A DNA stretch of 9,818 nt from an uncultured Collinsella sp. (GTDB lineage: Bacteria; Actinomycetota; Coriobacteriia; Coriobacteriales; Coriobacteriaceae): NCBI GenBank assembly GCA_934650975.1, contig CAKUFW010000074.1:1-9818 (forward strand), written 5' to 3'. The translations under genes and the position numbers were made by a program. Shown here in pieces: positions 1-9,417 of the stretch. A model generated the notes under the pieces. It worked only from the letters and a program-made list of their open reading frames with translations. It was not told the origin of the DNA and ran no database searches. The stretch's first letter is position 1; the number at the start of each line of letters is the position of its first letter.

Positions 1-218
1 ACCTCGACGCCCTTCTCCTCCTTGTACGCCTTGGCGATCTCCTTCCACTCCTTGTCGACCTCGGGCTTGAATTGGAGGAAGTAGACCTCGGCAGCGTCAC
101 CAGAAGCAGAGGAGCCGGAGCCGGCGGAGCCGCCGCAGCCCACGAGACCCAGACCGAGAACCGCAGCCGCGGAACCAGCGAAGCCCAGGAACTGCCTTCT
201 GCTCATTTCGTTCTTCAT
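1..218 (-). CDS. ABC transporter sugar-binding lipoprotein, N-terminal part (cut by window edge)
   Basis: Only the first 72 codons are present; the gene continues past the left edge. The N-terminus reads MKNEMSRRQFLGFAGSAA, a twin-arginine (SRRQFLG) signal followed by a hydrophobic stretch and a lipobox LVGC with the lipidated cysteine at residue 28. A Gly/Ser-rich tether then leads into a start typical of extracellular solute-binding proteins (VYFLQFKPEVDKEWKEIAKAY, here residues of the first beta strand and helix). The protein should be a membrane-anchored receptor that hands a sugar to an ABC importer. The ATG at 216-218 is preceded by a purine-rich AAAGGGTGGA; a second in-frame ATG lies at 204-206. 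A TreR-like regulator gene and PTS permease lie upstream, and operator-like palindromes precede this gene, so an alpha-glucoside-type ligand is inferred. The ligand cannot be read from this fragment. Confidence 0.8.
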   Translation of the reverse strand, partial: MKNEMSRRQFLGFAGSAAAVLGLGLVGCGGSAGSGSSASGDAAEVYFLQFKPEVDKEWKEIAKAYKEEKGVE

Positions 219-306
219 TACAATCCACCCTTTCACACCGTGGCGACACCCTTTGCCGCCGCCTTCGGAGATTGGCTTGGGGACTTAGCCCCTTTTGCTA
301 ATTCGT

Positions 307-335
307 ACAATACGCTTTTTCGCTAGTTGTTTGAA
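307..335 (-). promoter_or_regulatory. Candidate promoter of the sugar-binding lipoprotein gene
   Basis: Read leftward, TTCAAA (335-330) and TATTGT (312-307) are separated by 17 bases; each matches the sigma-70 consensus at four of six positions. The -35 lies inside the palindrome at 325-340, which would fit repression by the adjacent GntR regulator. A rival start is the perfect TATAAT at 418-413, which lacks a good -35. Confidence 0.35.
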
Positions 336-340
336 CAACT
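325..340. promoter_or_regulatory. Operator-like palindrome O1, upstream of the lipoprotein gene
   Basis: AGTTGTTTGAACAACT has perfect 7-base arms around a 2-base centre. The core TTGTTTGAACAA is shared, with few changes, by sites at 402-413, 1295-1310 and 1416-1431, all in promoter regions around the GntR regulator. The pattern fits a dimeric GntR/HutC repressor; binding itself is inferred. Confidence 0.6.
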
Positions 341-391: not shown

Positions 392-420
392 TTGACAAGT
401 TTTGTATAAACAATTATATG
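392..420 (+). promoter_or_regulatory. Rightward promoter-like sequence facing the terminator
   Basis: TTGACA (392-397, perfect -35) is followed after 17 bases by TATATG (415-420). On the opposite strand the same segment holds a perfect TATAAT (418-413). A rightward transcript would begin near 427 and run straight into the hairpin at 436-482, so it could make only a very short RNA. The operator-like site at 402-413 fills the spacer. Confidence 0.35.
402..413. promoter_or_regulatory. Operator-like palindrome O2, similar to the TreR site
   Basis: TTGTATAAACAA is an inverted repeat TTGT-N4-ACAA. It closely resembles the Bacillus subtilis TreR operator, which I recall as TTGTATATACAA. Its centre is about 75 bases from the centre of O1, close to seven helical turns, so a repressor loop between the two is possible (inference). 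It overlaps the leftward TATAAT at 418-413. Confidence 0.5.
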
Positions 421-524: not shown

Positions 525-1244
525 CTATCGCTTGGAATTGACGCGGTAGTGGAAGATCTCGGGATGGGTCCGGGCGTGCGTAACCTCAAACAGGATGCCA
601 TCCGAGGTGTACGACTGACTTTCCATGACGGCGACGCAGTTGTATTTGCCAAGGTCAAGATAGCTGCAGTCCTCATCGTTGGCAAGCTCGACACTCACCG
701 TACGACGGCTCGCCATTACCTTGACGCCGCACTTGTGCTCCAAGTAATCGTAGATGGACTTTGCGGCAATCTCGGGTGTAAGACCCTTGGCGATCGACTC
801 CAAAAAGTAGCCATGGTCTACCTGGCGCGCGCTGCCATTGAGGCTTCGAACGCGTACCACGCGAATCAGCTCCTCGCCCACCTTAAAGCCCAGACGGCGG
901 GAGAGCTGCTCGGTGCAAATCAGATGTTCAAAAGACTTCACATCCGTCGACGCGACAGCATTGTTCCGCTTTGCGAACTCGCCAAACGACTCGACTTCCT
1001 CGAGCGCGCCCAGCATATCGGTCTCGCCTTTGAGCCAGATGACGCGCACGCCCTTGCCGTGAATGGGCTGCACGTACATCTCGTCGGCAAGCATGGCAAG
1101 TGCACGGCGAACGGTATTGCGGGTGCACCCGAACTCCGCGGTCAGCTCGGCCTCGGTCGGCAGCATCTCCTGAAACGCATACGTTCCGTTGATGATGCGC
1201 GAACGAATCTCGCGGTAGATTCCTTCGTAAATCGCTTTTGGCAT
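525..1244 (-). CDS. GntR/HutC-family transcriptional repressor, TreR-like
   Basis: The 239-residue product has the normal length for this family. Residues 1-72 form a GntR winged helix-turn-helix (LPTEAELTAEFGCTRNTVRR, then a PIHGKGVRV wing). Residues about 90-235 form a UTRA effector domain. The C-terminal half resembles the trehalose-operon repressor TreR of Bacillus in several places: SIYDYLEHKCGVKV, ANDEDCSYLDLGKY and the closing HARTHPEIFHYRV. TreR responds to a phosphorylated sugar made by a PTS, which fits the divergent PTS gene. The ATG at 1242-1244 has a good AGAGGTGA ribosome site four to five bases upstream. Operator-like palindromes lie in its own promoter, in the permease promoter and before the lipoprotein gene, so it probably controls itself and both transport genes. 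The exact effector (trehalose-6-P, maltose-P or another) is uncertain. Confidence 0.87.
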   Translation of the reverse strand: MPKAIYEGIYREIRSRIINGTYAFQEMLPTEAELTAEFGCTRNTVRRALAMLADEMYVQPIHGKGVRVIWLKGETDMLGALEEVESFGEFAKRNNAVASTDVKSFEHLICTEQLSRRLGFKVGEELIRVVRVRSLNGSARQVDHGYFLESIAKGLTPEIAAKSIYDYLEHKCGVKVMASRRTVSVELANDEDCSYLDLGKYNCVAVMESQSYTSDGILFEVTHARTHPEIFHYRVNSKR

Positions 1245-1404: not shown

Positions 1405-1431
1405 TACAATGGGTTCATTGTTTAAACGTTT
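1405..1431 (+). promoter_or_regulatory. Permease -10 box followed by operator-like site O4
   Basis: TACAAT (1405-1410) is a five-of-six -10 box; no good -35 is seen at normal spacing. Six bases later CATTGTTTAAACGTTT (1416-1431) carries the operator core TTGTTTAAAC around the palindrome GTTTAAAC. It would cover the start point of the permease transcript, a classic place for a repressor to block. Confidence 0.45.
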
Positions 1432-1467: not shown

Positions 1468-3921
1468 ATGCTGCAGAAAATTCAACGCTTTGGCGGAGCC
1501 ATGTTCGCGCCCGCCATGCTCTTTTCCATATCGGGCCTTATGGTCGGCATCTCAGCCCTCGCCACGACCGTAGACATTGTCGGCGATATGGCCACCTATG
1601 GAACCCCCTGGTACATTTTTTGGAGTATCGTCCAACGCGGGTCGTGGACGGTCTTTAAGCGCCTTCCGCTCCTGTTTGCCATAGCGCTGCCCATCGGCCT
1701 TGCCCAAAAGCAGCCGGCGCGTTGCTGTCTCGAGGCCATGGTTGCATATTTTGCCTACTGCTTCTTTTTGAGCGAGATCATCAAGCTGAGCAGCAACAAC
1801 CTGGGGCTCATGTACCCCTCATTTCTAGCGCCCGCCACCGGGATCACTGTCATCGACGGCATCAAGACGCTCGACACCGGCATCGTCGGACCGCTGGCGG
1901 TCTCGGCAATCGTTGTCGCCATCCACGATCGCTTCTACGATGCCAAGGTGCCCGATTGGCTTGGCACGTTCTCCGGCTCCTCGCTGGTCTACCTCATCAG
2001 CTTTTTTGCCGTGCTCGGCCTTGCCATCGTCTCGGCTGCCGTCGTTCCCCTTGCATATGACGTGACCGAAACCCTGCGCAATGCGCTTACGGGCGTCGGC
2101 ACGCTCGGCGTGGGAGTCTTTGTCTTTTTGGAACGCGCGCTCGAGCCCATTGGCCTGCATCATCTGCTCTACATGCCTATCTACTACGACAACTTGGTCG
2201 TAAACGAAGGCATCTATGCCACGTGGACCAATCTGCTCCCCATCCTCTCCCATAGCACGCGCCCCCTCAACGAACTTGCGCCCTGGTCCGGCTTTACCGC
2301 CACCGGCTGGGTCAAGCTCTTTGGCCTGCCCGCCATCGCGGCGGCGTTCTACTCCACCGCCAAACCCGAGCGCCGGGCCGGCCTTAAGGTCATCCTTTTG
2401 CCCGCCATTGTTGCCTCGGTGGTCTGCGGCGTCACCGAGCCGCTCGAGTTCCTCTTTATGTTCACCCACCCTGGGCTCTTTTTGCTCTACGCCGTGCTTT
2501 CGTCATGCCTCGCCATGACCATGAACTTCTTTGGTATCGTCGGCATCTTCTCGGGCGGCCTTATGGAAATGGCGGCCTTCAACTTTATCCCGCTCATGCG
2601 CACACATGCCGGCACCTATCTTTTGGCGCTCGGCATCGGCTTGGCCTTTAGCGTCATTTATTTTCTGATCTATCGAGGCCTCATCCTGGCTTTTGACCTT
2701 AAGACCCCGGGCCGAGAGGACCATGTCGCCAATCGCGCGGCGGCCACTCGCCTGACGGGACGCGATGCTGCCATAGAACACACCGGCAAAGATGACGCAG
2801 CCAGCAGCCAATCGAACCAGGATCACCTGCTCGCCGAGCAGGTCGTCGCGCTCTTGGGCGGCGTTTCCAATATTGTGGGCGCAACCAACTGCGCCACACG
2901 GCTACGCGTCGAGGTCGTGGACCCCTCCATCGTCGCGGACAACGCGGCCTTTGTTGCAGCCGGTGCCAAGGGTCTCATCGTCACGGGCAAGACCGCCCAG
3001 GTGATCATAGGCGTCTCTGTCTCCCGCATCAAAGCACACTTTGACCAGATTATGGGACTCGAGCCGGGCTCCGGGCCTGCTGTCTCGTCCTCCCCTACCA
3101 CCAGCAACGCCCAATCACGCGGCAATATCTGCTTCTTTGACATCGACGGCACGCTCGCCTGGCAAGACCCCCGCGTGGCCCAGGAGCTCCCCGAAGACGA
3201 GCGCGATCTGTCCCCCTATCCCAACGAGGCGGTCTCGCGGGCCATCCGCACGTTTGTCGCCAACGGCAATATGGCCTTCATCTGCACGGGACGCACCCTC
3301 AGCTGCATTCATCCCAGGCTGCTCGAGCTGCCATGGTCCGGCGTCGTTTGCCTGGCAGGAGGCTACGCCGAACTCGACGGGCACATCGTGCGAAATGCGG
3401 CCATGAGCCCCGGCTTGTTGCAACGCCTCGCCCCGTATCTTGAGCAATCGGGAGAGGTGATTCGCTTTGAGGGCCTCGATCGCGTCGTGCGCATGAGTGC
3501 GGACGCCCCCGATAGCGACGGATACGCCCGCACCGTGGGCGATGCCGTCACAAAGCTCAAGCATTACAGCGCCTACAAGATTCTCATGTCGACGGCACTC
3601 GCCAATCGCATCGCCCAGGATAAGGGGATCGAGCCGCTGCTCTGCTTCAACGAGCTCGAGCTCGAGGTGACCGAAATCTCGCCCCGCGAGTGCACCAAGC
3701 GAACCGGCATCCAGGCCGTGCTTGGCGCCCTGGGGCCCAACCACGGCACCGTGTACGGCATCGGCGACGCAAGCAACGACGTCGCCCTTATGGAAACGGT
3801 CGATGTTGGCATCGCCATGGGCAACGCACCGGAATTCCTTAAGGACAAGGCGGACTATGTGACCGACTCCATCGATCACGACGGCGTCGTCACGGCACTC
3901 GAGCACTTCGGACTTATCTAG
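1468..3921 (+). CDS. PTS EIICB permease (maltose/alpha-glucoside type) fused to HAD sugar phosphatase
   Basis: The 817-residue product has three parts. Residues 1-411 are an EIIC membrane domain (QRFGGAMFAPAM start, GLHH at 229-232, VTEPLEF around 322-328), which imports the sugar. Residues 452-529 are an EIIB domain with the phosphoryl cysteine C475 in NCATRLR. After a Ser/Pro linker, residues 556-817 form a Cof-like HAD-IIB phosphatase with all four motifs: DIDGT (nucleophile D558, D560), CTGRT (T607), K744, and GDASND (D767, N770, D771). The C-then-B order and the GLHH context match MalP/GlvC-type alpha-glucoside permeases. No EIIA domain is present, so a separate EIIA is needed. I chose ATG 1468, with AAAGG six bases upstream, over a TTG at 1432. 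The likely job is PEP-driven import followed by dephosphorylation of the sugar phosphate; the exact sugar is not shown by the sequence. Confidence 0.88.
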   Translation: MLQKIQRFGGAMFAPAMLFSISGLMVGISALATTVDIVGDMATYGTPWYIFWSIVQRGSWTVFKRLPLLFAIALPIGLAQKQPARCCLEAMVAYFAYCFFLSEIIKLSSNNLGLMYPSFLAPATGITVIDGIKTLDTGIVGPLAVSAIVVAIHDRFYDAKVPDWLGTFSGSSLVYLISFFAVLGLAIVSAAVVPLAYDVTETLRNALTGVGTLGVGVFVFLERALEPIGLHHLLYMPIYYDNLVVNEGIYATWTNLLPILSHSTRPLNELAPWSGFTATGWVKLFGLPAIAAAFYSTAKPERRAGLKVILLPAIVASVVCGVTEPLEFLFMFTHPGLFLLYAVLSSCLAMTMNFFGIVGIFSGGLMEMAAFNFIPLMRTHAGTYLLALGIGLAFSVIYFLIYRGLILAFDLKTPGREDHVANRAAATRLTGRDAAIEHTGKDDAASSQSNQDHLLAEQVVALLGGVSNIVGATNCATRLRVEVVDPSIVADNAAFVAAGAKGLIVTGKTAQVIIGVSVSRIKAHFDQIMGLEPGSGPAVSSSPTTSNAQSRGNICFFDIDGTLAWQDPRVAQELPEDERDLSPYPNEAVSRAIRTFVANGNMAFICTGRTLSCIHPRLLELPWSGVVCLAGGYAELDGHIVRNAAMSPGLLQRLAPYLEQSGEVIRFEGLDRVVRMSADAPDSDGYARTVGDAVTKLKHYSAYKILMSTALANRIAQDKGIEPLLCFNELELEVTEISPRECTKRTGIQAVLGALGPNHGTVYGIGDASNDVALMETVDVGIAMGNAPEFLKDKADYVTDSIDHDGVVTALEHFGLI

Positions 3922-4037: not shown

Positions 4038-5063
4038 ATGCGAGAGCCTGTGTCCAGCCCGTTTACCAGCTTTTTAGCCCAGCACTTTGACCAGATCAAC
4101 GACTATCTGGCAACGTTCTTTGACGGACAGGCGAGCTCCGCCGATATCGAGCGCTATCTGTACGCCCCGCTCTCGGCGTTTACCGCCAATGCCGGCAAGC
4201 GCCACCGCCCACTCATCTGCATGCTCGCCGCCACCGCAGTGGGCGGCAGCTTTGAGAGCGCCCGCAGCGCCGCGGCGGCCATCGAGCATTTCCAGTCGGG
4301 TGCGCTCATCCACGACGACATCGCCGACAACGGCCAGCTTCGCCGCGGCAAGCCCTGCATGCACCTCACCGAGGGCACGGGGCTTGCCATCAACTGCGGC
4401 GACCTGGCGCTCACCATGGTCACCAAGACGGTCCTCGACGACCCCACGCTCGAGCCCAACGTAAAGCTGCGCGTACTCCACGAGCTCACCGAGATGATCG
4501 TCCGCACCATCGAAGGCCAAGCGCTCGACCTGGGCTGGGTCCGTGACGGGCGCTTCGACATCTCCGTCGATGATTACCTGGACATGGCAACGCACAAGAC
4601 CGCGTTCTACAGCGGAGCCACGCCACTTGCCGCCGGCGCCATCATTGGCGGAGGCAGCGAGCAGCAAGTCGAGGCGCTGCGCACCTTTGGCCTGCACACC
4701 GGCCTTGCCTTCCAGATTCAGGACGACCTGCTCAACCTCGTTGGCACCAAGGAGGCCGCCAACAAGGATTTCCGCACCGACATCACCGAGGGCAAGCGCA
4801 CGCTCGTCGCCGTGCACGCCCTATCCGACGAGCGCTATCACGACGAGGTTGAGGCAATCCTCTCCTCGGGCACCGAGGACCCCGCACAGCTCGCACGCGC
4901 CGTGGAGATCTTCCAGGAGACTGGCTCCATCGATTACGCGCACGCCTACGCGCTGGACCTGACTGCCAAGGCCAAGGCCGCCATCGAGGATGTCTCGCTC
5001 GACCCGCATGCACGCGAACTGTTCCTCTCCATGGCAGATTTCTTTGTGGAGCGACTCAACTAG
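4038..5063 (+). CDS. Trans-polyprenyl diphosphate synthase (isoprenoid chain elongation)
   Basis: The protein (341 residues from this start) condenses isopentenyl diphosphate onto an allylic diphosphate in the cytoplasm. The first aspartate-rich motif is HDDIAD (D93, D94, D97), followed by the usual LRRGKP. The second is QDDLLN (D229, D230, N233), where the last position is Asn, as in some geranylgeranyl diphosphate synthases. THKTAFYSGATP carries the conserved lysine. Residues four and five before the first motif are small (Ala, Gly), where short-chain farnesyl synthases have bulky ones, so a C20 or longer product is inferred, perhaps for a quinone tail or lipid carrier. The start is uncertain: GTG 3990, ATG 4020, ATG 4038 and GTG 4050 are all in frame and none has a textbook ribosome site. 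No terminator separates it from the permease gene 116 bases upstream, so read-through is possible. Confidence 0.87.
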   Translation: MREPVSSPFTSFLAQHFDQINDYLATFFDGQASSADIERYLYAPLSAFTANAGKRHRPLICMLAATAVGGSFESARSAAAAIEHFQSGALIHDDIADNGQLRRGKPCMHLTEGTGLAINCGDLALTMVTKTVLDDPTLEPNVKLRVLHELTEMIVRTIEGQALDLGWVRDGRFDISVDDYLDMATHKTAFYSGATPLAAGAIIGGGSEQQVEALRTFGLHTGLAFQIQDDLLNLVGTKEAANKDFRTDITEGKRTLVAVHALSDERYHDEVEAILSSGTEDPAQLARAVEIFQETGSIDYAHAYALDLTAKAKAAIEDVSLDPHARELFLSMADFFVERLN

Positions 5064-5201
5064 CGGGGGCTATAAAACCTGTCGGCAGCGCATCTGGGTA
5101 CAACTTGCTACACTGTTGAGTGTATGTTTATGCATCCCTTTGCGCTGTCTATCCGACAGACGCTTAAATAGTACGAATGGTACGCCGAAAGGGGTTCGTT
5201 C

Positions 5202-6107
5202 ATGGAACCTATTACAACGGGCATGCAGGGAGCAGCCGTCGAGGACGTGCAATCCCGTCTCCTGCAGCTCGGCTACACTATCGATGCCGCCGAGGTCGCC
5301 GACAAGCACTTTGGTGCTACCACCGAGCAGGCCGTTAGCACCTTTAGGCTCGACAGCGGTCTTGCCGCCGGTCACGCCGTTGACATCCCCTGCTGGAGCG
5401 CCCTGGTCGACGCCTCGTATAAGCTGGGCGACCGCACCCTCTATCTGCGCATGCCCAATTTCCATGGCGCCGACGTACAAGCCCTGCAGAAGGCGCTCAA
5501 CGTTTTGGGCTTTGCCTGCGGCGAGGACGACGGTTACTTTGGCCCGCACACCGAGGCGGCCCTGCAGCAGTTCCAGGAAAACGTTGGCTTGTTTGCCGAC
5601 GGCATGGCCTTCCAGGATACGTATGCCTATATCAACCGCCTGCACCACGTGTGGGAGGGCAAGCCTTCGGTGACCGAGGCAGAGTCGCGCATCGGTTTTG
5701 CCCGCGCGGCCAACGTGCTCGAGCGTTTCCTGATTGCCGTCATCGGCGAGGACCCCATTGCGCGCAGTGTAGCATCGCGCATGTGGAATATCGCCACGGC
5801 GACGACCGACAGCAGCGGCATGATGCTTTGCGATTCCGAGATTCCGACCGATGTCGACCTGGTGCTCGAGATTGCAAGCGACGAGCTGCCCGCCGACGCC
5901 GCGCCGCGCGCCACGATCGCCCTCGCCGAGTGCCACAACCTGGCCCAGCGTATCCGTACCGCCAATGCCGCCGCACAGCAAAAGCCCGCACGCATCCGCA
6001 TTGAGCTCACCGGTATGACGCGCTACAACGGCACCTTCACGGCAAGCGACGCCCAGACGCTCGCCGTCCGCCTACTCGATGGCGTTTGCGATGCCCTTGC
6101 AGATTAG
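5202..6107 (+). CDS. Protein with two peptidoglycan-binding domains, C-terminal domain unknown
   Basis: The 301-residue product has two PG_binding_1-type repeats. The first spans about residues 5-65 (AVEDVQSRLLQLGY, ATTEQAVSTF). The second spans about 89-145 (ADVQALQKALNVLGF, DGYFGPHTEAALQQFQ). Residues 165-301 are an alpha/beta region I do not recognise; none of the usual zinc-ligand pattern of an amidase_3 domain is obvious. There is no signal peptide or membrane segment, which is odd for a wall-binding protein. Actinobacterial CwlM also has two such repeats, lacks an export signal and regulates peptidoglycan synthesis from inside the cell, so a regulatory role is possible, but this is inference. 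The start is supported by GAAAGGGG seven bases before ATG. A weak promoter-like pair, TTGCGC (5140-5145) and TTAAAT (5164-5169), lies in the 138-base gap upstream. Confidence 0.78.
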   Translation: MEPITTGMQGAAVEDVQSRLLQLGYTIDAAEVADKHFGATTEQAVSTFRLDSGLAAGHAVDIPCWSALVDASYKLGDRTLYLRMPNFHGADVQALQKALNVLGFACGEDDGYFGPHTEAALQQFQENVGLFADGMAFQDTYAYINRLHHVWEGKPSVTEAESRIGFARAANVLERFLIAVIGEDPIARSVASRMWNIATATTDSSGMMLCDSEIPTDVDLVLEIASDELPADAAPRATIALAECHNLAQRIRTANAAAQQKPARIRIELTGMTRYNGTFTASDAQTLAVRLLDGVCDALAD

Positions 6108-6114
6108 GTAAACT
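6086..6114 (+). promoter_or_regulatory. Candidate promoter of tRNA-Gln
   Basis: TTGCGA (6086-6091) and TAAACT (6109-6114) are separated by 17 bases, just inside and after the end of the preceding gene. The start point would fall near 6121, 24 bases before the tRNA, at a short hairpin GTTGC/GCAAC (6121-6136). Confidence 0.45.
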
Positions 6115-6144
6115 AAACGAGTTGCTTTTGGGCAACACCCATAC

Positions 6145-6216
6145 TGGGACGTAGTTCAACGGTAGAACTCCGGTTTTTGGTGCCGGCTGTTGGGGGTTCG
6201 AATCCCTCCGTCCCAG
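6145..6216 (+). tRNA. tRNA-Gln (anticodon TTG)
   Basis: The 72-base gene folds as a complete cloverleaf. The acceptor arms are TGGGACG and CGTCCCA with G as discriminator base. The D arm contains GTTCAACGGTAGAAC. The anticodon stem CCGGT/GCCGG encloses the loop TTTTGGT with anticodon TTG, reading CAA for glutamine. The T arm carries GGTTCGAAT. No CCA is encoded at the 3' end, so it must be added enzymatically. A terminator follows 14 bases later. Confidence 0.95.
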
Positions 6217-6230
6217 CCCCTAAGAACATA

Positions 6231-6266
6231 GCGCTCCAGGCCCTTACGGACCCGGAGCGCTTTTTT
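6231..6266 (+). terminator. Intrinsic terminator of tRNA-Gln
   Basis: GCGCTCC (6231-6237) pairs with GGAGCGC (6254-6260), extended by an inner GG/CC, and is followed directly by six T (6261-6266). Confidence 0.85.
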
Positions 6267-6275
6267 GTGTGCAGG

Positions 6276-6369
6276 CGGAGGGATTCGAACCCGCAAAGGA
6301 ACGCAACTTCTTGTGAAGAACGAAGGGTTGTAAAAGGTAGATTTTTGGGACATGCCTAGAAATCTACCT
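6276..6369. repeat. Dispersed repeat, copy 1 (two-hairpin module)
   Basis: It begins with a tRNA T-arm-like ATTCGAACC, then the core AACGCAACTTCTTGTG. CAACTTCTTGT can pair with ACGAAGGGTTG using several G-U pairs (hairpin 1, 6304-6330). AGGTAGATTT (6335-6344) and AAATCTACCT (6360-6369) form a perfect 10-base hairpin 2. A second copy lies near 6791-6880. The first 17 bases (6276-6292) are also the reverse complement of the tRNA-Gln 3' end at 6194-6210. Confidence 0.6.
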
Positions 6370-6412: not shown

Positions 6413-6790
6413 ATTCGGCCTCCCTGCCGAACCGCCACCAGCATTTTTCGAGTTATGCGGTCCCCCTGCTGACTCACCACGTAACGCCGCCAAAATTTCT
6501 TGAGCGCTCTTGTCCTAATCTGAGCGTATTCAAGCCTTTTCAAGCGGATATTCCCAGAATCAAACACAGCAAAGTACGCATAACATCCCAAGACGGCATC
6601 TTGGCGCTGCAAATGATCCCCGGAAAACCGCACAACTCGATTTTTGCAGGTGGGCGGAAAGTGCGACCGCCCTATGCCCCATATTTGCATTCTCCGTGCG
6701 ATATTAGATTCAAAGCAACCATTTCCATACGGGAATGACCTCAAATAACGCCATGCTTCATTTCAACAATCTAGGCCTCCGTGGGCAAGC
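6413..6790. other. Intergenic stretch without a convincing gene
   Basis: No open reading frame here has a good ribosome site or a recognisable product. A 111-codon leftward frame from a TTG at 6744 and an overlapping rightward frame to 6738 both exist, but their composition (many Arg, Cys, Phe and Ile) is unlike the neighbouring genes. Base composition is visibly more A+T-rich than the flanking genes. Two small hairpins are present: CCAAGA-cggca-TCTTGG (6588-6604) and GGGCGG/CCGCCC (6652-6672). A degenerate mobile element or noncoding RNA is possible. Confidence 0.4.
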
Positions 6791-6880
6791 TGGGGGCTTC
6801 GAACCTGCCAGATAACGCAACTTCTCGTGCAGGACGAGAAGTTGAAGGTAGATTTTCAGGCATGTCCCAAAAAACTACCT
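6791..6880. repeat. Dispersed repeat, copy 2 (hairpin 2 inverted relative to copy 1)
   Basis: The first half is in direct orientation with copy 1: CTTCGAACC, then AACGCAACTTCTCGTG. Here hairpin 1 is perfect, CAACTTCTCGT / ACGAGAAGTTG (11 bases). The following 35-base hairpin 2 (about 6846-6880) matches the reverse complement of hairpin 2 in copy 1 at 32 of 35 positions, as seen from the loop GGCATGTCCC here against GGGACATGCC there. Confidence 0.6.
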
Positions 6881-6923: not shown

Positions 6924-6987
6924 TACATCTAAAAATTATCAGCCCAGTTCCGAAAAGCGAGCCGCATGCGACAACCATGTAGCCACA

Positions 6988-7124
6988 GGCCCCGGGAGAG
7001 CGGGGGCACCGGCTTAGGTTTATCGCGAGTTCCGCACGAACAGGAGGCCACTTAATGTGGCCTCCGTCGTGAGCAGGACTGTAGAGCAGGAAACCTAAGC
7101 CGGTGTCCCCGCTCTCCCGGGGCC
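6988..7124. repeat. 137-base foldback element with 34-base arms
   Basis: The left arm (6988-7021, starting GGCCCCGGGAGAGCGG) and right arm (7091-7124) are reverse complements over 34 bases, with a single position that would be G-U in RNA. Inside, CACGA/TCGTG (7035-7039 and 7067-7071) enclose GGAGGCCAC-ttaat-GTGGCCTCC (7043-7065). The result is a three-tier hairpin starting seven bases after the stop codon of the leftward Toprim gene. No T-run follows, so it is not a standard terminator, although it would fold in that gene's 3' RNA. Alternatives are a non-autonomous mobile element (MITE-like) with long terminal inverted repeats, or a structured RNA. Confidence 0.75.
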
Positions 7125-7131
7125 GACGGAA

Positions 7132-9315
7132 CTAATTATTAAGCATACGGTCGAAGCTTCCCGAGTCGCCATCCCGATAGTCGGCCGTCATCAGGATCTC
7201 CTGCGGAATACGCCCGCCCTCGCGCAACACGTTGCGGAACTGCACGCGCGTAACCATGGGCAGATCTTTGATCGTCGCCGCCAGGTTCTGCGGTACGCCC
7301 TGGTTGGCAGCCGCGGGCTCGCACTCGCCACCGGCCTTCACGCGACGCTTGTGCTCGGCAAGCATGGCACGATACATGCCGGCATGCAGGCGAATCTCAA
7401 CGACGTTGGCGTTGCGGGCCTGCTCGACGATGCGCGCGCCCTCTCGATCGATGTCGCCCACGTAATAGACGTAGTTAAAGCGATAGCCGATCTCGGCCAG
7501 ATAATCATCCAGTGCGTGTGAGACGCTCGCCTTGCAGCCGCCACCAAAGATGACGCCGCCGACCTTGGTGCCAAAGAGCTTGGCATGCTTGCGGCCGCGC
7601 AGGAGTTTGACGATCTCGTCGTAGGTGTCCAGATTCTCGACCATAATGAACGGCTTGTCGGCACCCAGCGTAAAGAAGCCCGTAAAGTGCACGGGGCGGT
7701 TGGGGGCGACCTTAATCGCCTGCATGCTGATGCCCTTTTCGGTCATACGCCTGATCAAGCGCTCACCGTGCTTGCCGTCAAAAGCCTTCTCGTCATTGAA
7801 AATCTGGTAGGCACGCTGACGACGCGAGGCAACCGGCGTGTCGACGCCGCGGTTCTGCTCAATCCAAGCCTGGATGATTGCGATCTCCTCGGCAATCTTG
7901 CGGTTGGACATCTCGTTGTGCTGAGTGCGCTGCGGAGCCTTTTTGCCGTCCTTGCCCTCGACCTTAACGATTTGGGTCTGCTGTTCCTTAATCTTGGAGA
8001 GCGCCGTAGGCGTGGGGACGACCTTGAGCAGCTGCCTGCCTAGGACACGGGCCAGGGCAAACGCTGAGACCTCGCTATGGCCGGTCGACTCAGACTGCTG
8101 GGCAGCCGTATCTGCTGCGGCAGGCTCGGGCTTCTTCTGAGACTTGCGCCTAGAATCGCCTTGAACATTGCGCTCGCGTTTCGGCGTAGACGCCTGCTTC
8201 TGCGGGCGCTCGGACTTGCCCTCCTTCGCCGACTGGCGCTTGGGCTGCTCCACCGGAGCGTCCGCCTTTGCATCTTCGTCGCGCGATGTCACTTGTTCAG
8301 CAGCAGTCTGAGCATTTGAGCCACGGCCACCGCGATGACGACGACGGCGAGGCTTACTCGAGGTGCTCTCCCCCGCCTGCTCGCCCGTAGGCTGCTGGCC
8401 CTGAGTCTCCGCATCGGACGCAGCCTGCTGCTCAACAGGCTTCTGTTCACGAACTTCCGGCTCGGCAGGCTTCTCAGGCACTTCCGCTTGCGCCGCAGGA
8501 ACCTGATCGACCTTCTCCTGACGCCTTACGGGATACGCGCGATCCACAAAGCCGCGACCGGGACGACACGAGCCCGATGCCTTCTTGGCCGGCTTCTCGG
8601 AATCGCCCGCGACCTCGGCAGACTCTTCGGCCTCGTGCACAACATCCTGCTGCTCGGCCTTAAAGTGCGCACCGCGACGACGCTTGGGCTTCTGAGGCTC
8701 AGCGGGCTTCTGCTCTTTCACAGGCTCCTGCGGCTCGGCAACGGGCTCGCTCTCGACAGTCTCGATATCGGCCCCGTCCTTTTGAGCCACAGCACGACGG
8801 AAGCGCTCCTGCTGGGCGCGGCGCTGCGCATCACGCTTGCCGCCTCCGCCAAAGCCGCCTCGGCCCGCCTTGGCGGTAAAGGCACGCACAACATGCTCAT
8901 CGAGCAGCTCGTCTGTATCGATATGCTCACGCGGGGCAACTTCTTCCGTAGCAGACACCTCAACGGAATCATCGACGGAAACCTCTTCGGCAACCTCGAC
9001 AAGCTGCTCCTGGGCATCATGAATCTCGGCATTGATGGTATAGAACGCCGGGCGGCCGTTAATGCCGCTGCCCTCGATCTTGGTCACAATCTTTGCCGCG
9101 ATAAGCTCGTCGCGCATCGCCTTGGTATCGCACTCCTTATCCACGGAGCGGAAAATCTGCGCCAGCGCGCTCGACTTAATCTTGAGCGCCTTGCGGCAGA
9201 GCAGGTCGTAGGCAACCAGCTTGGCCCGCTCGGCAGAAAGCGACGTTTGTCCGCTCAGACGCTCAGCCAGAGCATCGACATTTTGTTGGTTATCGGAATA
9301 TACCGTCTTGGCCAC
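7132..9315 (-). CDS. JetD-like Toprim (DUF2220-type) protein with winged helix and long disordered linker
   Basis: The 727-residue product has three regions. Residues about 5-100 look like a winged helix (SAERAKLVAYDLLCRKALKI, then a GRPAFYTI wing). Residues about 105-414 are low-complexity and charged (Glu, Pro, Gln, Lys, Ala), with RGG-like patches GRGGFGGGGKR and RRRRHRGGRG. Residues 415-727 carry IFNDEK, then a Toprim fold: E560 in MVENLDTY, GGG at 591-593, and YYVGDIDREG with D621 and D623. This set resembles the C-terminus of JetD, the nuclease subunit of Wadjet plasmid-defence systems, which is related to Spo11/TopoVI-A. No JetA, JetB or JetC gene is visible. DNA binding and metal-dependent cleavage are inferred from the fold. 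I chose GTG 9315, preceded by GAAAGGGG; in-frame ATGs lie further upstream. Confidence 0.72.
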   Translation of the reverse strand: MAKTVYSDNQQNVDALAERLSGQTSLSAERAKLVAYDLLCRKALKIKSSALAQIFRSVDKECDTKAMRDELIAAKIVTKIEGSGINGRPAFYTINAEIHDAQEQLVEVAEEVSVDDSVEVSATEEVAPREHIDTDELLDEHVVRAFTAKAGRGGFGGGGKRDAQRRAQQERFRRAVAQKDGADIETVESEPVAEPQEPVKEQKPAEPQKPKRRRGAHFKAEQQDVVHEAEESAEVAGDSEKPAKKASGSCRPGRGFVDRAYPVRRQEKVDQVPAAQAEVPEKPAEPEVREQKPVEQQAASDAETQGQQPTGEQAGESTSSKPRRRRHRGGRGSNAQTAAEQVTSRDEDAKADAPVEQPKRQSAKEGKSERPQKQASTPKRERNVQGDSRRKSQKKPEPAAADTAAQQSESTGHSEVSAFALARVLGRQLLKVVPTPTALSKIKEQQTQIVKVEGKDGKKAPQRTQHNEMSNRKIAEEIAIIQAWIEQNRGVDTPVASRRQRAYQIFNDEKAFDGKHGERLIRRMTEKGISMQAIKVAPNRPVHFTGFFTLGADKPFIMVENLDTYDEIVKLLRGRKHAKLFGTKVGGVIFGGGCKASVSHALDDYLAEIGYRFNYVYYVGDIDREGARIVEQARNANVVEIRLHAGMYRAMLAEHKRRVKAGGECEPAAANQGVPQNLAATIKDLPMVTRVQFRNVLREGGRIPQEILMTADYRDGDSGSFDRMLNN

Positions 9316-9349
9316 GGGGCCCCTTTCATATGCACACATATACGTCCAT

Positions 9350-9379
9350 ATGGTACAACGCGCGCCGCCATCCACGCAA
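9350..9379 (-). promoter_or_regulatory. Weak candidate promoter of the Toprim gene
   Basis: Leftward, TTGCGT (9379-9374) and TACCAT (9355-9350) are 18 bases apart. The match is weak (three and four of six), but the position between the upstream terminator and the GTG start is right. Confidence 0.28.
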
Positions 9380-9417
9380 AACATCTGCGAGAACGCCCCG
9401 GCATCACCCGTCTTTAC

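Follow-up and report, generated by a model that had tools for sequence, protein, structure and literature searches.

In its textbook form, uptake through the phosphotransferase system (PTS) is group translocation, in which the sugar receives a phosphate on entry and keeps it. A stretch of 9,818 nucleotides (nt) from an uncultured Collinsella sp. (assembly GCA_934650975.1, contig CAKUFW010000074.1; the whole stretch is referred to below as the window) raises the question of what a PTS permease might do with a phosphatase of its own, as one open reading frame (ORF) in it encodes an EIICB permease followed by a domain of the haloacid dehalogenase (HAD) superfamily. The initial annotation of this DNA had described a complete EIIC and EIIB, the latter with phosphocysteine C475, joined in frame to a HAD-IIB domain with all its catalytic residues. 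Our results confirmed this description, as the Pfam cut-offs were passed and the residues were present in 20 of 20 fused sequences. The annotation had also proposed import and dephosphorylation in one protein, which fits the exchange of HAD for GH4 hydrolases beside related permeases, the match of a GH4 partner to a maltose-6'-phosphate glucosidase, the separate HAD neighbors of other permeases, and the MalQ and phosphorylase genes of the cluster. Judged from these comparisons, the fusion probably serves to import maltose as maltose-6'-phosphate, which its tail would dephosphorylate before the free sugar enters the MalQ/phosphorylase pathway.

The fusion and its parts have the following coordinates in the window:

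1468..3921, + strand: EIICB-HAD fusion gene, 817 codons plus stop, recognized by Pfam domains and conservation in relatives
1468..2757, + strand: EIIC membrane domain (PF02378), residues 1-430 approximately, with H231/H232 and GVTEP (E324), these residues invariant across all 20 fused sequences
2758..2829, + strand: variable EIIC-EIIB linker, residues 431-454, median pairwise dN/dS 0.69, predicted local distance difference test (pLDDT) below 50 at 419-446
2830..3057, + strand: EIIB domain (PF00367), residues 455-530, phosphocysteine C475 encoded at 2890-2892 and present in 20 of 20
3058..3120, + strand: variable EIIB-HAD linker, residues 531-551, about 20 residues, from the linker alignment; pLDDT below 50 at 532-549
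3121..3918, + strand: HAD-IIB phosphatase domain (PF08282), residues 552-817, model pLDDT 95.6, nearest folds HAD-IIB phosphatases, e.g. BT4131 (1ymq)
3139, 3145, 3697 and 3766, + strand: HAD residue codons D558, D560, K744 and D767, respectively, read from the sequence; also T607, N770 and D771

The reading frame runs from an ATG at 1468 to a TAG at 3921 and encodes 817 amino acids; a mechanical reading would start at TTG 1432. A stop or change of frame at the EIIB-HAD junction, the weak point named by the initial annotation, was looked for and not found in the ORF reading of the window, and the frame is open in 21 of 65 family genomes. Pfam PTS_EIIC matched residues 11-345 (129.8 bits, cut-off 30.7), PTS_EIIB residues 457-489 (44.7 bits, cut-off 27.0) and Hydrolase_3 residues 556-811 (100.1 bits, cut-off 20.9). 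The EIICB part thus fits a permease of the PTS Glc superfamily, with both cut-offs passed and C475 (within NCATRLR), E324 and H231/H232 kept. The tail fits a HAD-IIB (Cof-type) phosphatase, as it passes PF08282, contains all four catalytic motifs and has a cap domain; it missed the cut-off of the Cof-subfamily model TIGR00099 (93.2 vs 137). We take motif I to be D558 and D560, motif II T607, motif III K744, and motif IV D767, N770 and D771. All of these residues, together with those named for EIIC and EIIB, were invariant in 20 fused sequences (the window and 19 loci). The median pairwise ratio of nonsynonymous to synonymous substitution rates (dN/dS) was 0.125 for EIIC, 0.085 for EIIB and 0.10 for HAD, as determined by the NG86 method from those of 190 pairs with dS of 0.02-3 (189, 164 and 187 pairs, respectively, and 136 for the EIIC-EIIB linker). 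Purifying selection therefore acts on EIIC, EIIB and HAD alike. An in-frame ATG is also present at codon 529, and an internal start there may yield free HAD protein.

A scan of species genomes, which finds close relatives only, returned 19 loci, all matching the fusion over its full length (1-817). Full-length copies were found in 21 of 65 family genomes, each without an internal stop. A wider search for the EIIC-EIIB-HAD architecture, as suggested by the initial annotation, placed it in one Collinsella group: at E<=1e-80, with the two best candidates per genome scored, 21 of 396 class genomes carried it, all 21 of them in the Collinsella family set, and none of the remaining class genomes did. 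Among 396 phylum genomes, a draw that overlaps with that of the class, only two full-length matches were observed, both within the Collinsella fused group. One of 72,556 plasmid records covered at least 80% of the query, namely Collinsella aerofaciens NZ_OY725717.1. Among the best 120 of 4713 public protein matches, identity reached 100%, and the named Collinsella proteins and genomes among the matches listed were 82-88% identical; by these identities, the window DNA belongs to the C. aerofaciens group. Fusions outside the sampled genomes, e.g. in Bacillota and other phyla, are conceivable. The RefSeq record NZ_OY725717.1 annotates the entire fusion as 'PTS transporter subunit EIIC' and does not mention the phosphatase. 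The occurrence of an unbroken fusion in 21 of 65 family genomes and in this named record led us to rule out a sequencing or assembly artifact. NZ_OY725717.1 (899,693 bases) is labeled 'plasmid 6' and carries genes of chromosomal type (murB, tsaD, alr and others), and it looks like a mislabeled piece of chromosome. Among the matches listed from the open-licence PMC literature, no title or abstract start named a permease-phosphatase fusion or a HAD-type maltose-6'-phosphate phosphatase.

What stands beside this permease where it is not fused? We compared 85 EIICB places, comprising all 82 class-genome matches at E<=1e-80 and three from the family search (L097 twice, and L100); family-search rows at 29-33% identity lie outside this set, as do the permeases of G040 and G048 (contig C77), each of which has a GH4 gene alongside by its coordinates. 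A GH4 gene adjoined the permease at 42 places (40 downstream, 2 upstream), a separate HAD gene at 19 and a fused HAD at 21; three permeases had neither partner (L125, L129 and L134) and none had both. The separate HAD genes are homologues of the fused HAD (37-44% identical) and lie on the same strand as the permease, 36-234 nt downstream of it. When one of them (P0178) was used as a query at E<=1e-40, this HAD subfamily was found in 41 of 396 class genomes: fused in 21, beside such a permease in 19 and elsewhere in one, G322, in which no such permease was matched in the genome or found near the HAD gene. Because the subfamily is fused to or beside the permease in 40 of these 41 genomes, the fusion is a Rosetta-stone case, uniting two genes that adjoin elsewhere. 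In its operons, HAD stands where related permeases have a GH4 hydrolase.

Two further observations concern the C-terminal and partner positions of these permeases. P0286 (703 amino acids) and P0345 (686 amino acids), close homologues of the unfused permease, have an EIIA domain (PF00358) that appears to sit at the C-terminal place of the Collinsella HAD, aligning on the HAD columns. Locus L187, which holds the permease of L129, has ABC and GntR genes, neither HAD nor GH4, and a GH13 alpha-amylase-family gene (4475-6295) in the cluster, which might supply a hydrolase.

The GH4 partners point to 6'-phospho-alpha-glucosides as the likely product of the permease family. The GH4 protein of L100, the sole partner compared with solved structures, matched the Bacillus subtilis maltose-6'-phosphate glucosidase 1u8x (E 2e-194). 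The motif CDMP, which we presume to be linked to phospho-alpha-glucosidases, was present in 37 of the 42 GH4 neighbors, and the other five are more distant GH4 proteins (25-26% identity).

The genes around the fusion suggest where a dephosphorylated sugar could go. Two features of the window lie to its left, and to its right are a polyprenyl synthetase gene and then unrelated genes:

525..1244, - strand: GntR/UTRA transcriptional regulator (PF00392, PF07702), of which all 21 fused loci have a homologue next to the fusion
3..236, - strand: start of an ABC sugar-binding protein (SBP) gene with a TAT signal, running past the left edge of the window; all but one of the 21 short fused loci contain the SBP of relatives

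In NZ_OY725717.1, malQ and a glucan phosphorylase gene are followed on the opposite strand by genes for an ATPase, two permeases, a binding protein and GntR, and then by the fusion. Of 16 fused loci whose flanks reach far enough, 15 have a phosphorylase gene on the far side of the ABC genes, L015 being the one without; this count leaves out L006, L008 and L016, whose sequence ends too early. Both fused loci read far enough (L054 and L205) have malQ upstream of the phosphorylase gene. The cluster's ABC permease was present at 98-100% identity in every fused genome but G039 (20 of 21), and a homologue at 63-64% occurs in seven genomes without the fusion. Of the 19 separate-HAD loci, 11 had SBP and 4 had both MalQ and phosphorylase within stretches of about 10 kb. 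All four separate-HAD loci with longer flanks (L189-L192) contained malQ and phosphorylase, as was already known for two of them before the longer reading, and three contained ABC genes. Around the 42 GH4-type places, no SBP, MalQ, phosphorylase or ABC gene was found in stretches of about 10 kb at more than 40% identity. A search for GH65 phosphorylase gave a hit in 1 of the 65 genomes of the family and in none of the 21 that carry the fusion; the route that can be seen for free maltose is thus MalQ plus phosphorylase. The separate-HAD locus L190 has a gene for a YdjM-family membrane protein (PF04307) at 6932-7567, between HAD and GntR, and a similar ORF starts in L192; the annotated fused cluster of NZ_OY725717.1 has no YdjM-family gene.

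Operator-like sequences also connect the genes of the cluster. The window contains the following sites:

327..338, no strand: operator-like palindrome TTGTTTGAACAA, before the ABC genes
402..413, no strand: operator-like palindrome TTGTATAAACAA, before the ABC genes, with one mismatch to TTGTTTRAACAA
1297..1308, no strand: operator-like site before the fusion gene, with 2-3 mismatches depending on strand
1418..1429, no strand: operator-like site TTGTTTAAACGT, before the fusion gene, with 2 mismatches

All 10 fused loci displayed (of 19) have these sites too, some of them differing by a letter. In the window alone, 11 matches with up to 3 mismatches were found vs 5.8 expected, and 15 of 200 shuffles reached as many, so that the evidence for the motif from the window alone is weak and the stricter counts in longer loci carry the weight. 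With at most 1 mismatch, TTGTTTRAACAA precedes malQ and the ABC genes in L054 (6 strand-wise matches at 3 places, 0.05 expected), and the permease and malQ in the separate-HAD locus L189 (5 matches, 0.01 expected). Sites within 2 mismatches precede the permease in 22 of 22 fused loci (window included), 31 of 42 GH4-type and 10 of 19 separate-HAD loci. Since the motif also occurs before GH4-type permeases, it does not tell the GH4 and HAD types apart. The GntR regulator presumably binds the palindromes. Read by eye, a hairpin CGCCCGGTCAA...TTGACCGGGCG flanked by A- and T-runs lies at 436-482, likely serving as a two-way terminator behind the GntR gene. Just upstream of it, the palindrome at 402-413 sits on the + strand between the hexamers TTGACA (392) and TATATG (415), which could drive a very short RNA; this pair was not listed by a consensus promoter scan.

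Altogether, these comparisons suggest a pathway in which the EIIA-Glc-type proteins of the cell would phosphorylate C475 (EIIA of the PF00358 type was found in 65 of 65 family genomes, a set that does not include the window's own genome). The EIICB part would bring in maltose, or a closely related alpha-glucoside, as maltose-6'-phosphate, driven by phosphoenolpyruvate (PEP), the HAD tail would strip the phosphate from this product, and free maltose would pass to the MalQ/glucan phosphorylase pathway encoded alongside, with one PEP spent for each free sugar imported. Both linkers are variable and predicted to be disordered, which is why we envisage HAD as a cytosolic module on a tether that would meet the product as it leaves the permease.

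A number of observations weigh against this pathway, starting with the protein itself. The best NCBIfam match of the permease is TIGR02005 (alpha-glucoside IIBC), yet its score was 498.5 vs a cut-off of 607.3. The HAD domain model was of high confidence (mean pLDDT 95.6) with a complete cap domain, and its nearest solved folds are HAD-IIB hydrolases, including BT4131 (1ymq), YidA, YbiV and SupH, several of which are described as sugar phosphatases; trehalose-6-phosphate, sucrose-phosphate and mannosylglycerate-phosphate phosphatases follow further down the list. As modeled, the fold does not name the substrate, and rival substrates are indistinguishable by it. HAD-IIB enzymes are often promiscuous, and many have unknown or wide substrates. 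The full-length model (predicted template modeling score 0.50, EIIC moderate, pLDDT below 50 at 419-446, 532-549 and short EIIC stretches) does not fix the placement of the domains. On the other side, the fused and nearest separate HADs, 17 proteins in all, agree at 18 positions (e.g. H615, P622, Y633, R642 and E731) in 16 or 17 cases, and no more than a quarter of 33 other HADs have the same residues there; this pattern fits one common substrate. It might be argued from the tether beside EIIB, and from the breadth of HAD-IIB substrates, that HAD regulates the permease or the PTS, e.g. by dephosphorylating EIIB or another protein, or that it acts on an unrelated metabolite. We regard this as very improbable, considering the HAD-IIB hydrolases and sugar phosphatases nearest in fold, the complete cap in the model, and the separate-gene form in relatives, which needs no tether.

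The genomes that carry the fusion provide further points of this kind. GH4 is present somewhere in 18 of the 21 fused genomes, so that the idea of GH4 being missing from them was dropped; only G006, G007 and G018 showed none (their completeness was not given). Six GH4 genes from six of the fused genomes, one from each, included five with CDMP, and most fused genomes are therefore not short of a likely phospho-alpha-glucosidase. The permease-GH4 pair itself is kept in 5 of 21 fused genomes (G004, G016, G036, G038 and G039) and likewise in the separate-HAD genomes G201 and G206. The GH4 and HAD routes are thus found together in many genomes, perhaps for different sugars. G037 has the cluster's ABC permease at 97% identity and no match to the fusion.

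Two other explanations draw on these genomes. The initial annotation had offered net import of a free sugar or a brake against sugar-phosphate stress; import is the favored reading, and the brake is the weaker rival. As a safety valve, HAD would trim excess sugar-phosphate, such as glucose-6-phosphate or a non-metabolisable phospho-glucoside, and would not be the main catabolic step. The common promiscuity of HAD-IIB enzymes would suit this role, and the GH4 present elsewhere in most fused genomes could do the catabolic work. There is also a precedent in Escherichia coli YigL, a HAD-like phosphatase that is activated by SgrS alongside repression of PTS permeases, its dephosphorylation permitting efflux of the sugar (PMC4021124). 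However, a phosphatase permanently tethered 1:1 would cost PEP on each cycle to no benefit if the free sugar went unused, the operon place is taken by either HAD or GH4 (both together at none of the 85 places), and malQ shares the operator-like palindrome with the transporters of the cluster in the loci read, which fits a catabolic step. We therefore consider the safety valve unlikely.

The other explanation keeps import and dephosphorylation in one protein and changes the sugar to trehalose, isomaltose, a sucrose isomer or maltotriose. The regulator's best NCBIfam match is indeed the TreR model TIGR02404 (163.3 bits), EIICBs of this family presumably carry several sugars, and the co-occurrence of both unit types in the seven genomes named above suggests different substrates. 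The TreR cut-off (211.95) was missed, however, MalQ and phosphorylase act on alpha-1,4-glucans, and the annotation of the malQ-to-fusion cluster in NZ_OY725717.1 lists no enzyme for trehalose, isomaltose or sucrose. A different alpha-glucoside is accordingly rather improbable, and of the initial suggestion of trehalose or a maltose-like disaccharide, we consider trehalose the less likely part.

Returning to the import of maltose-6'-phosphate and its dephosphorylation by the tail, we asked what permease trees say about the descent of the fusion. In a first, quick tree of 71 rows, with 7 of 22 fused sequences (window included), the GH4/HAD partner label needs a single change, and the branch parting all GH4 rows has a support of 12. 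The fusion is nested among HAD-linked permeases (forks 90, 96, 80 and 99), the set at the fork of 99 also holding the GH4-linked row L124 and three rows with neither partner. Here too there are observations that speak for caution: the stem branch of the fused permease is long (1.5), and its sequence has diverged, perhaps along with its substrate. A second analysis, which left out 2 fused rows and 10 rows belonging to long-branched groups, again nested the fusion among HAD-linked permeases in a free search (95, 100). The approximately unbiased test did not reject a grouping of the fusion with GH4-type permeases (p-AU 0.62), and the tree constrained in this way was even 5.2 log units better; with the long stem, the tree alone does not place the fused permease. 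In a regulator tree (61 rows, 6 fused), 33 of 34 GH4-linked regulators formed one clade (99) without the fused ones, and the same kind of test, with the unrelated GntR row L167_9459 included, was not decisive (p 0.31). The tree as proof of descent was dropped in view of the support of 12, the p-AU of 0.62 and the regulator p of 0.31. As the trees are not decisive, the link between the fusion and the separate HADs was rested on HAD homology, cluster content and operators. HAD was likely recruited once and then fused.

Other parts of the window showed features away from the cluster. A 34-nt inverted repeat (97% complementary, GC-rich, arms 69 nt apart) lies at 6988-7124, between the tRNA-Gln region and a 750-amino-acid ORF, and matched no Rfam family. 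Two degenerate copies of an element of about 100 nt (75% and 72% in two parts) are located at 6267-6369 and 6781-6880; a segment at the start of the copies is complementary to the 3' portion of tRNA-Gln (6276-6296 vs 6190-6210, 95%), and an element that once inserted at the tRNA may have left the copies behind. The 750-amino-acid ORF (7132-9384, - strand) matched no Pfam or NCBIfam model. A like-named ORF starts after the cluster in L005 and L002, and NZ_OY725717.1 has a hypothetical protein at its place.

The fusion resembles several known systems and differs from each of them. It shares with alpha-glucoside PTS permease-GH4 pairs, which we take to be of the AglA/AglB and MalA/GlvA type, the EIICB family (the best match being TIGR02005, below its cut-off) and, in other Coriobacteriia, the operon place; unlike in those pairs, a phosphatase replaces the GH4 hydrolase, in one polypeptide. 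With the HAD-IIB sugar phosphatases BT4131 (1ymq), YbiV, YidA and SupH, it shares the fold, cap type and catalytic residues, and the trehalose-6-phosphate, sucrose-phosphate and mannosylglycerate-phosphate phosphatases indicate that this fold can take disaccharide-type phosphates. The separate EIICB and HAD operons of other Coriobacteriia have a homologous permease, HAD (37-44% identical) and GntR, and share malQ, phosphorylase and mostly ABC genes in the loci read far enough, whereas they consist of two genes with a gap of 36-234 nt instead of one; close separate HAD proteins are named Olsenella and Paratractidigestivibacter. According to PMC3737437, Enterococcus faecalis MalT-MapP imports maltose through the PTS as maltose-6'-phosphate, an adjoining gene encodes the phosphatase MapP, of the endonuclease/exonuclease/phosphatase (EEP) family, and a free-maltose pathway follows; the predicted function of the fusion is alike in all three respects. 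The same text describes malT-SMU_2046c of Streptococcus mutans with MalQ/GlgP, in which the phosphatase role of SMU_2046c is itself only suggested, and the Collinsella set likewise includes MalQ plus a phosphorylase. Unlike MapP as described there, the Collinsella phosphatase is a HAD-IIB protein, of another superfamily, and is part of the permease polypeptide. We lean, somewhat past an even balance, towards a self-dephosphorylating permease with a HAD-IIB maltose-6'-phosphate phosphatase unrelated to MapP, which would have been recruited once in Coriobacteriia in place of GH4 and fused in the C. aerofaciens group.

If this is true, a permease with its own phosphatase spends PEP to import an unmodified sugar, and maltose taken up through the PTS would feed the MalQ/glucan phosphorylase route that is normally served by ABC import. 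It would represent a second, unrelated solution to the problem solved by MapP, kept in a gut species group. The GH4-or-HAD swap beside one permease family would, in turn, offer a substrate-predicting rule for many unnamed HAD proteins of Coriobacteriia.

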